DNA of 64,000 nucleotides from Phycicoccus duodecadis. GTDB lineage: Bacteria > Actinomycetota > Actinomycetes > Actinomycetales > Dermatophilaceae. The DNA lies in the NCBI RefSeq assembly GCF_002846495.1, contig NZ_PJNE01000001.1:2852001-2916000 (forward strand). Reading direction: 5' to 3'. The translations under genes were made by a program, and so were the position numbers. Positions 43,534 through 46,140 of this stretch are shown here, piece after piece. The notes below the pieces were generated by a model. It was not told where the DNA came from and ran no database searches. It was given only the letters and a program-made list of their open reading frames with translations. The first letter of the stretch is position 1. Each line of letters begins with the position of its first letter.

Positions 43534-46140
43534 CTAGAAGCCGTTGTCCTGGGCCATGTTGCTGAAGCGCGAGTAGTGCCCCTGGAACGCCAGCACGATG
43601 TCCTTGGTGGGGCCGTTGCGGTGCTTGGCCACGATGACGTCGGCCTCCCCCTCGCGCTCGGCGTCGCCGCGGTCGCGGTGCAGCAGGATGACGACGTCGG
43701 CGTCCTGCTCGATCGAGCCCGACTCACGCAGGTCCGACATCTGGGGCCGCTTGTCGGTGCGCTGCTCGGGGCCACGGTTCAGCTGGCTGATGGCGATGAC
43801 CGGCACCTCGAGCTCCTTGGCCAGCAGCTTCAGGGCCCGCGAGAACTCGGCGACCTCCTGCTGGCGCGACTCGACCTTCTTGCCGCTGGTCATCAGCTGC
43901 AGGTAGTCGATGACGATGAGCTTGAGGTTGTGCTGCTGCTTGAGCCGGCGCGCCTTGGCCCGGATCTCCATCAGCGACATGTTCGGGCTGTCGTCGATGA
44001 ACAGCGGGGCGTTGGAGATCTTGCCCATGATCCGCGCCAGCTTGGTCCACTGTTCCTGGTTCTTCAGGCCGCGACGCAGGTCCTGGAGCTGGATGGTGGC
44101 CTCGGCCGACAGGATGCGCATGGTGATCTCGGTGCGGCTCATCTCGAGCGAGAACACCGCCGCCGCCATGTTGTGCTTGATGGCCGCCGCCCGCACGATG
44201 TCGATCCCGAGCGTGGAGTTGTGCGTCGGGACCATCGTGCGGCCCGCGAGGTAGAGGTGGTCGGCGTTGTCGACCTCGACGCAGCGCACCGGCACCGGCT
44301 CGACCGGACGCACGTCGACGATGAAGCGGGAGTCGCGTCGTTGGAACCGGCGACCGCGCAGCTCCTTGTGCCGGATGACCTTGCGAGTCAGCCGGAAGAC
44401 ATCCTCGTCGGCCGAGAACGTCAGGGTGAACGCCGTGGAACTGGACTCCGTACGCCCTCGTACGGTCCTGGTGGAGATCCCGTACCGGTAGCCCAGCCCC
44501 GACACGAGCTCGCAGACGTCGTCACGCAGCCGCGCACTGGTGGTGGTGAACTGCACACATCCGGTCGCCGTCACCGTGCCGTCGGTGTCGAGCAGCCCGG
44601 CCAGCAGGGCTCTGCGCTGCGTCTCGGACGCCCGCTGGTACGCACCGGGGATGTGCTTGTCGCCCAGCACGCCCACCGAGCGGAGAAGCCCCACGACCGT
44701 CCCGTGGTCGCTACGACAGGCCTGGCACCGTCGCAACCCCGTACACAGGGCGCCACAGTCCGGGCAGCGGGGCTCGAGCTGCTCGGTCCCCTTGGCCCTC
44801 CCCCCGCACGACCGCCCGCACGTCTTGACCTGGCTCGTGCGCGGCACGAACTCGTCACCGCACACCACGCAGTGACGCGGCGTCACCGGTGCTTCCGGCA
44901 GCCTCAAGGAGTACCGCATGGGCGAAGAGGTCGGGGTGACCGTGAGCCCCTCGGCCTCCAGGTACATGACGATCTCGGCGTCGGCGGTCGTGATCTGCGC
45001 CGCGGCGGAGGTGCCGTCGCCGAGCCAGGCACCGAGAACGTACGGCGCGAGGGGCAGGTCGACCTCCGGCCCCACCAGGGGCTGCGCGAGGCGCACGCTG
45101 TGGTTGAGCCGGGCCTCCGCAGTCGGCGTCCGCAGAGTCGCCGCGATCTCCTCGGTCGTGCGCACCGCCGCGAACGTCCCTTGATGGCGCATCCGGTTGC
45201 GGCCGGCACGGGCGGCCTGCGCCGAGCGCCGCGAGGACCGGGTGTCGGTGAGCCACTGGTGCTGGGCGTCGGCCACCACGACCGTCCCGTCGGAGAACTC
45301 GACCTCGAAGCAGGGGCGTCCCACCATGACCTCGGTGGCGGCCACCACGGTCGTCACGTGGCCGTCAGCACCGAACAGCCGGTCCCCGACCGCGACCTCG
45401 CCCATGGTCGTCCATCCGTCGGGGGTCGGCAGAGGGGTGTCGAGAGCCAGCGCCTTGCCGACGGCCGGGCGCGCCGCGACGACGATCATCTGGCCCGGGT
45501 GCAGCCCGTGGGTGAGCTCGTCGAGCTCGATGAAGCCGGTGGGCACGCCGATGAGGTCGTCGGTGCGCCCCGAGGCGGCCTCGATCTCCTCCATCGTCTC
45601 GTTGAGCAGCTCGCCGAGCACGTGGTAGTCCTCGCCGCCGCGCTGCTCGGCCACGCCGTAGACCTCGGCCTGGGCGCGGTTGACGATGTCGGCGATGTCG
45701 CCCTCGCCCTGCGCGTAGCCCATCTGCACGATGCGGGTGCCGGCCTCGACCAGGCGCCGCAGCACCGCGCGCTCGTGCACGATCTCGGCGTAGTAGCCCG
45801 CGTTGGCGGCCGTGGGGACCGACTGGATGAGCTGGTGCAGGTACGCCTGGCCGCCGACCCGCACCAGGTCGCCGCGCTTGCCGAGCTCGTCGGCGACGGT
45901 GATGGCGTCGGCCGGCTCACCGCGCCCGAACAGGTCGAGGATGGCGTCGAAGATCGCCTCGTGCGCCGGCCGGTAGAAGTCGTGGGCCTTGCACTCCTCG
46001 AGGCAGTCGGCGATGGCGTCCTTGTCGAGGAGCATCGAGCCCAGCACCGACTGCTCGGCGTGCAGGTCCTGCGGGGGGACGCGGTCGTCCGGGGCTCGCT
46101 CGGACCCGGTGTAGCCGGTGCCCAGCTCGGCGATGCTCAC
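43534..46140 (-). CDS. dnaB: Replicative DNA helicase DnaB (intein-containing precursor)
   Basis: An 868-residue precursor; after intein removal the helicase is 456 residues, the normal DnaB length. The N-terminal primase-binding domain (about 20-130: PPQDLHAEQSVLGSMLLD) and RecA-like motor are typical. The Walker A loop is split exactly: PAVGK229 before and S642-TLG after the intein, restoring ARPAVGKSTLG. After it come VFSLEMSRTEI, LIVIDYLQLM (Walker B), ISQLNRGPEQRTDKRPQMSDLRESGSIEQDADVV in motif 4, and VAKHRNGPTKDI. The GTG at 46140 has GAGAGGGG upstream. It unwinds DNA at the replication fork. Usual neighbours rpsF-ssb-rpsR-rplI are not in the window. Confidence 0.95.
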   Translation of the reverse strand: MSIAELGTGYTGSERAPDDRVPPQDLHAEQSVLGSMLLDKDAIADCLEECKAHDFYRPAHEAIFDAILDLFGRGEPADAITVADELGKRGDLVRVGGQAYLHQLIQSVPTAANAGYYAEIVHERAVLRRLVEAGTRIVQMGYAQGEGDIADIVNRAQAEVYGVAEQRGGEDYHVLGELLNETMEEIEAASGRTDDLIGVPTGFIELDELTHGLHPGQMIVVAARPAVGKALALDTPLPTPDGWTTMGEVAVGDRLFGADGHVTTVVAATEVMVGRPCFEVEFSDGTVVVADAQHQWLTDTRSSRRSAQAARAGRNRMRHQGTFAAVRTTEEIAATLRTPTAEARLNHSVRLAQPLVGPEVDLPLAPYVLGAWLGDGTSAAAQITTADAEIVMYLEAEGLTVTPTSSPMRYSLRLPEAPVTPRHCVVCGDEFVPRTSQVKTCGRSCGGRAKGTEQLEPRCPDCGALCTGLRRCQACRSDHGTVVGLLRSVGVLGDKHIPGAYQRASETQRRALLAGLLDTDGTVTATGCVQFTTTSARLRDDVCELVSGLGYRYGISTRTVRGRTESSSTAFTLTFSADEDVFRLTRKVIRHKELRGRRFQRRDSRFIVDVRPVEPVPVRCVEVDNADHLYLAGRTMVPTHNSTLGIDIVRAAAIKHNMAAAVFSLEMSRTEITMRILSAEATIQLQDLRRGLKNQEQWTKLARIMGKISNAPLFIDDSPNMSLMEIRAKARRLKQQHNLKLIVIDYLQLMTSGKKVESRQQEVAEFSRALKLLAKELEVPVIAISQLNRGPEQRTDKRPQMSDLRESGSIEQDADVVILLHRDRGDAEREGEADVIVAKHRNGPTKDIVLAFQGHYSRFSNMAQDNGF
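44218..45453 (-). other. Class 3 intein with LAGLIDADG homing endonuclease and zinc-finger-like insert
   Basis: Residues 230-641 of the DnaB precursor (412 residues), in the P-loop between GK229 and S642. It begins with Ala instead of Cys/Ser and ends HN641. The class 3 WCT set is present: Trp296 (AQHQWLT, block B), Cys620 (VRCVEVD, block F) and Thr639 (PTHN, block G). LAGLIDADG-type motifs VLGAWLGDGT and LLAGLLDTDGTV give a homing endonuclease. Between them lie Cys424-x2-Cys427, Cys441-x3-Cys445, Cys459-x2-Cys462 and Cys472-x2-Cys475, two four-Cys zinc-binding candidates. Splicing must occur for a working helicase because the ATP site is interrupted. Confidence 0.92.

Follow-up and report, generated by a model that had tools for sequence, protein, structure and literature searches.

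The dnaB locus of Phycicoccus duodecadis raises the question of what eight paired cysteines are doing inside the homing endonuclease of an intein, and whether they serve splicing, the endonuclease or neither. The window, by which we mean the whole 64,000-nucleotide stretch of DNA that was analysed, contains a dnaB gene whose Walker A motif is interrupted:

43534..46140, minus strand: dnaB precursor, 868 aa, GTG start (DnaB_C, E 2.2e-97; DnaB N domain, E 4e-35; P0001 in the database has the same length)
45454..45459, minus strand: Walker A Gly-Lys, the codons that end the N-extein
44218..45453, minus strand: class 3 intein, 412 aa, Ala1 to His411-Asn412
44212..44217, minus strand: Walker A Ser-Thr, the codons that open the C-extein, with the +1 Ser

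The dnaB open frame extends to 46221 (minus strand), and the GTG at 46140 is its most likely start. Because this GTG lies 27 codons downstream, residue numbers in the open frame exceed those of the original prediction by 27; W323, C647 and T666 of the open frame, 296, 620 and 639 of the original prediction, and W67, C391 and T410 of the intein are the same three residues. The intein is flanked by ...ARPAVGK before Ala1 and STLGIDIV... after Asn412, and is thus at the DnaB-b site (Walker A of DnaB, between GK and S/T). The insertion was predicted to separate GK from ST over 412 residues, and it does so exactly. This site of DnaB is already known to host class 3 inteins. Because Walker A is split, the precursor should be unable to bind ATP before splicing.

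Samples of related inteins were compared with that of the window. A database search scored 7,994 candidates, of which 7,661 proteins passed at E 0.001; 117 of the best 120 (one of them the window's own protein) were aligned with the window to give 118 rows, and three partial sequences were left out. Surveys of 58, 396, 394 and 248 genomes, which overlap, yielded 155 loci and 151 intein rows, with no paired intein match at five of the loci (L020, L044, L045, L146 and L151); the loci are the best listed matches plus hand-picked places, are biased to clear cases, and give proportions that are not frequencies. At the DnaB Walker A site there are 122 survey rows, made up of 11 mini-inteins and 111 inteins of at least 200 aa.

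The splicing domain carries these residues:

45310..45312, minus strand: Cys48, at the alignment position of DnaBi1 Cys48, the redox partner in M. smegmatis (Cys in 226/228 full-size rows)
45253..45255, minus strand: Trp67 of the WCT triplet, block B (228/228)
44281..44283, minus strand: Cys391, block F nucleophile (equivalent to Cys118 of M. smegmatis DnaBi1)
44224..44226, minus strand: Thr410 of the WCT triplet, block G
44218..44223, minus strand: His411-Asn412, C-terminal end of the intein

Class 3 inteins are defined by a WCT triplet in blocks B, F and G (PMC5050341). The window's intein has the triplet (W67, C391 and T410), with D62xxH65 beside W67 in block B and VPTHN as block G; position 1 is not Cys, Ser or Thr but an Ala, as in all 118 aligned inteins. 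The class 3 type proposed from Ala1 and the WCT set is thereby upheld. Both the triplet and D62, H65 and N412 are unchanged in all 228 full-size rows (111 survey, 117 database). Judged by these residues, Cys391 would attack the N-terminal junction, the N-extein would move to Ser+1, and Asn412 would cyclise.

Between the splicing blocks lies the endonuclease, which contains the cysteines in question:

45010..45042, minus strand: first LAGLIDADG motif, YVLGAWLGDGT, with Asp146
44575..44607, minus strand: second LAGLIDADG motif, LLAGLLDTDGT, with Asp291
44701..44892, minus strand: putative zinc module, intein residues 188-251, between strand β4 and the helix preceding the second LAGLIDADG motif
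44806..44871, minus strand: finger 1, Cys195, 198, 212 and 216, CxxC-x13-CxxxC
44716..44766, minus strand: finger 2, Cys230, 233, 243 and 246, CxxC-x9-CxxC

The LAGLIDADG_3 match scores 29.7 bits (cut-off 22.5), and the acidic residues of both motifs, D146 and D291, which we take to be the catalytic Asp, are present. The names of strands and helices are our own assignment, made by eye from the LAGLIDADG fold. Nine Cys lie between the motifs; eight form the two sets at the positions originally given, and the ninth, C237, which had been omitted, is variable (Cys in 12 of the 118 aligned inteins). For comparison, the intein in the DnaB-like helicase of Brevibacterium phage Rousseau, the one intein examined of 379 phage records matching that of the window, has the class 3 residues, lies between GAGK and TT, and retains an intact LAGLIDADG pair, but lacks the module: it reads from strand directly into helix where the window's intein carries these 64 residues. 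Thus, the module is an insertion in the β4-α3 loop. The eight Cys would form two separate four-Cys zinc ribbons in this one loop of the N-terminal endonuclease half.

The pattern is not a product of chance, since in every one of the eight columns at least 117 of the 118 aligned inteins have Cys. All eight are kept in 115/117 full-length relatives (among the best 120 of 7,661 matches, the window's own included), so the original prediction, which had staked itself on conservation in the closest inteins, stands on this point. In named genomes, which include Nocardia, Rhodococcus, Mycobacterium, Blastococcus, Saccharopolyspora, Nonomuraea, Nocardiopsis, Streptomyces and others, 75 of 80 inteins (the best 80 of 238 loci) have all eight; the exceptions lack one or two Cys (L216, L257, L264), most of finger 1 (L258) or the module (L265). 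In this named set a single gap at C391, T410 and N412 falls in L208, whose row was clipped by the rule used to locate intein ends. The 111 full-size survey inteins at the DnaB Walker A site are more diverse: 62 carry a module of at least 55 residues (all eight Cys in 61 of them), five have finger 2 only (L092, with Gly at position 243, L100, L101, L103 and L113), one is partial (L109), and 43 have neither finger. Because finger 1 has been lost alone in several lineages, the fingers are separable units. At other sites the module, scored as two or more CxxC pairs mid-intein, occurs in 1/29 survey inteins (L090). With the phage Rousseau intein also devoid of it, the module is, as had been proposed, no standard part of intein endonucleases.

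Presence of the module goes with an intact endonuclease. A complete core, defined as Asp146, Asp291, strands β3-β4 and the following helix, is found in 60/62 survey inteins with the module vs. 8/49 without the full module (Fisher p 7e-20, a test that ignores kinship); for both Asp only, the counts are 60/62 vs. 18/49 (Fisher 1e-12, again ignoring kinship). The eight complete cores that lack the full module have no finger (L093, L099, L102), finger 2 (L092, L100, L101, L103) or a partial module (L109), and both Asp are also kept in L265 and L258 of the named set. Since such module-poor inteins keep the core or the Asp, an endonuclease can look intact without the module. An early generalisation from 18 inteins, that intact LAGLIDADG motifs occur here only with the module, was overturned by 13 module-free inteins that keep both motifs. 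Even so counted, of the 68 complete cores in the survey 60 come with the module, and in actinobacteria an intact endonuclease at this DnaB site normally carries it.

On a tree of 117 inteins, built with the module columns excluded, the state of the module changes 24 times (at least 17 changes are forced by well-supported branches), in some cases inside a single genus group (L093 next to L077 and L081; L094 next to L087). Among 17 independent pairs, loss of Asp accompanied loss of the module in 7.0 on average, the reverse held in 0.1, and 9.8 showed no difference (sign test, median p 0.016, range 0.002-0.375). In 25 pairs, dN/dS was 0.27 for the module, 0.30 and 0.23 for the endonuclease halves, and 0.14 for the splicing domain. 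The module thus behaves as a part of the endonuclease, given the similar strength of selection and the shared pattern of loss; as far as sequences can tell, it tracks the endonuclease and not splicing.

What does the module resemble? We aligned 27 of 49 diverse module sequences. At E 0.1, phrog_1333 was matched by 25/27 members, phrog_1271, a phage HNH endonuclease, by 20/27, phrog_6975 by 18/27, and the Pfam double zinc ribbon DZR_2 by 18/27 (best E 7.5e-5); the window's own module scores 12.5 bits against DZR_2, under the cut-off of 27. When ten shuffles with the Cys held fixed were run against PHROGs as a control, none matched phrog_1333, phrog_1271 or phrog_6975, and one gave two other weak PHROG matches (best E 0.006). 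The best hit in a profile search of solved structures was a designed zinc-finger protein (E 0.003), with no single stretch passing; further structure matches, at E of at least 0.02, were C2H2 fingers, ribosomal bL32/eL37, a polymerase subunit and nuclear receptors. Matches to nuclear-receptor zinc fingers (VDR, ERR2; E 0.07-0.59) were dismissed as a likeness of spacing. A search of 50,697 phage records with the module alone found nothing at E 0.01, and viral contigs searched with the module alignment and one peptide pattern gave 18 pattern matches and no confirmed relative. An HNH endonuclease frame with the finger-1 pattern is present in L299. Across 394 genomes of the class, the module profile matches 52, with nearly all places, judged by eye, inside surveyed inteins; the exceptions are five places in G547, G555, G643 and G734, and those in G555 and G643 are frames rich in CxxC in which no endonuclease is visible.

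Zinc-binding elements are found in several kinds of homing endonuclease. CxxC...C pairs similar to those of the window's module occur in DZR_2 and in HNH homing-type endonucleases (phrog_1271, the ShiLan element), although the core of the latter is HNH and that of the window is LAGLIDADG. The ShiLan HNH enzyme has flanking zinc fingers (PMC11855218), and a review counts zinc fingers among the elements that contact long DNA targets in other homing endonuclease families (PMC3943268). An architectural parallel is yeast HO / WHO, in which, as in the window, a LAGLIDADG intein-like endonuclease is joined to CxxC zinc fingers; HO requires zinc, and its finger residues are essential for cleavage (PMC7282813). 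In HO / WHO, however, the finger domain is C-terminal, exteins and block G are missing, and there is no splicing, whereas the window's module is internal (residues 188-251 of 412), in an intein with block G and with DnaB exteins on both sides. According to PMC7282813, no organism is known to have intein-zinc finger fusions other than HO and WHO, and in the text accessible for the openly licensed PMC literature we found no report of a bacterial intein endonuclease with internal zinc fingers.

The module is also found in other P-loop hosts. In L090 the host is a HerA-like ATPase (Pfam DUF87, 18.1 bits; cut-off 23.2), which the intein splits between GSGK and T. A search from its endonuclease returned 1,579 proteins, and 16 of the best 120 have no DnaB domain; these hosts include proteins with AAA_10 and TraG P-loop domains, the AAA_10 proteins being presumably VirB4/TraC-like. 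The module is at the same spot in 14/16 (the strict four-CxxC pattern in 10/16). The exceptions are P0123, a terminase, whose row is that protein's second intein and is not at its P-loop, and P0133, whose start is doubtful. In the 14 module-bearing hosts the junction falls between GK and S/T in 13 and between RK and S in P0129. By eye, Cys243 is replaced by His, another zinc ligand, in P0124, P0125 and P0161. In a 49-row tree with module columns excluded (20 DnaB-site and 11 other-site rows hand-chosen; midpoint root), the 34 module rows, 27 double and seven in which one finger, the second or the first, is reduced or altered, form one clade (98/90) together with L093, which has lost the module; the clade leaves out the 14 other module-free rows, P0123 and P0133 among them. 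The simplest reading of this tree would be a single gain of the module. Tentatively, and at somewhat less than an even chance, one class 3 lineage may have specialised in Walker A (GK-S/T), gained the double zinc ribbon once near its base, and come to occupy DnaB, AAA_10, TraG-type and other P-loop ATPases. In that case the fingers would act as a separable arm for target reading, through which a single endonuclease fold could reach GK-S/T codons in unrelated genes, and endonuclease decay would repeatedly involve loss of the arm.

In the congeners of the window the target site is empty. All 11 other genomes of the genus that were compared have an uninterrupted DnaB_C match (positions 1-255), and in 11/11 of these congeners the joined flanks of the window align ungapped across the site (285-300 nt, 90-98%). 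The intein query matched 20/58 related genomes, the window's own included, with eight matches of full length. DnaB of the nearest congener is 99.8% identical to the window's exteins, and the nearest intein copy among the matches listed is 78% identical. Because the congener sites are empty, the exteins nearly identical and the nearest listed intein only 78% identical, the intein is probably a recent horizontal arrival. The LAGLIDADG endonuclease would cut intein-free dnaB across its P-loop codons, and repair would copy the intein in.

For the eight Cys, the original prediction had offered two roles, DNA-target reading and zinc or redox control of splicing. The former fits the comparative data; the latter does not, as the module changes state 24 times while W67, C391 and T410 stay constant and the known control site lies elsewhere. 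Cys-rich ribbons can release zinc upon oxidation, a general property that we counted in favour of a zinc or redox switch on splicing and hence on DnaB activation. In addition, zinc and oxidation inhibit splicing of inteins of the M. smegmatis DnaBi1 type (PMC7360933, PMC6195587). DnaBi1 (class 3 mini-intein; PDB 6bs8, 6own) occupies the same Walker A site as the window's intein, aligns with it ungapped over residues 1-67 and the last 34, and shares Ala1, D62xxH65, W67, the block F Cys, Thr, His-Asn, the +1 Ser and Cys48. It differs in that it is 139 aa long and has lost the endonuclease, so it has no module. Its inhibition runs through the splicing domain, where the residues described as controlling it are Cys118, Val119, Tyr128 and Cys48 (PMC7360933, PMC6195587). 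These align with C391, V392, Y401 and C48 of the window. Since they lie outside the module, a splicing switch in the window, if any, would need no module, and zinc or redox control, if present, would more likely use the Cys48/Cys391 site. Moreover, 43/111 full-size inteins and 11 mini-inteins at this site lack both fingers and keep the WCT residues, which makes control of splicing by the module improbable. The match to the DnaBi1 control residues is itself incomplete across the family: position 401 is Tyr in 201/228 and Phe in 27/228, and position 392 is Ile or Leu in 68/228. Cys48 was termed non-conserved in the DnaBi1 paper (PMC6195587); its near invariance at the DnaB Walker A site (226/228) puts the redox-sensing Cys48 in context.

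The main rival is a purely structural one, in which zinc bound by the module holds the endonuclease together without touching DNA. The position of the module between the two LAGLIDADG halves, and the decay of the core that accompanies its loss, would agree with such a role. Against it, motifs are intact without the module at other P-loop sites (phage Rousseau, L027, L028, L125, L126 and L152); as these module-free relatives show, the endonuclease fold does not need the module as such, and the profile relatives of the module include an HNH endonuclease family. We regard a structural role as rather unlikely, though well ahead of a splicing switch. That the module rides along as an unselected insertion is hardly credible, for all its many losses on the tree: the eight Cys are near-invariant, dN/dS is 0.27, and most survey inteins with a complete core carry it. 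Target reading remains the favoured reading, and most likely the ribbons would widen or stabilise contact with the DNA target during homing. Taken together, the comparisons make it probable that the window holds a full-length, apparently intact and recently acquired mobile class 3 intein, in which two four-Cys zinc ribbons most likely serve target contact in this way, would be dispensable for splicing, and are lost in the course of endonuclease decay.

The intein of the window is one ordinary intact member of its group, and the finding is the module-bearing group itself. The combination of zinc finger and LAGLIDADG endonuclease, built differently from that of HO / WHO, occurs in true inteins of Nocardia, Rhodococcus, Mycobacterium, Streptomyces and others. 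With two-finger, one-finger and no-finger forms among close relatives, natural variants are at hand for testing what the fingers contribute to a LAGLIDADG endonuclease. The putative fingers, common to many relatives, suggest a means, open to experiment, by which such elements might locate their targets.

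The redox partner cysteine of the M. smegmatis DnaBi1 mini-intein, Cys48, aligns in the window intein with a codon at

45310-45312 (-): Cys48 codon

Among survey and database rows, this column is Cys in 226 of the 228 full-size inteins at the DnaB Walker A site, and in the mini-inteins there as well (11/11). By contrast, the M. smegmatis DnaBi1 paper (PMC6195587) describes Cys48 as non-conserved.

The column is mostly Val or Ile in the inteins of a further set of survey rows:

L015-L019, L040-L043, L046-L049: inteins of class 3, inserted at PLAxMRGR|TLNx

Most of these inteins, whose host is presumably PhoH-like, have both LAGLIDADG motifs; none has the zinc module (two four-Cys sets, predicted to bind zinc).

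Nine surveyed DnaB-site inteins (L134-L141 and L143) with the zinc module are enlarged to 486-501 aa, the extra ~80-90 aa lying between block B and the endonuclease, and fall in two family groups. The module also occurs in two class 3 inteins of 617 aa each, L090 (-), hosted by a HerA-like ATPase, and P0122, whose host protein has no Pfam match; both carry another insert of ~200 aa.

At locus L299, sequence reading gave two nested frames:

L299:103-1086 (+): frame with intein-like ends
L299:288-971 (+): enclosed HNH endonuclease, in a different reading frame

The endonuclease has two fingers, both of the type of finger 1 in the window intein (CxxC-x13-CxxxC there), and the arrangement resembles the out-of-frame HNH endonuclease published for the ShiLan element (PMC11855218).
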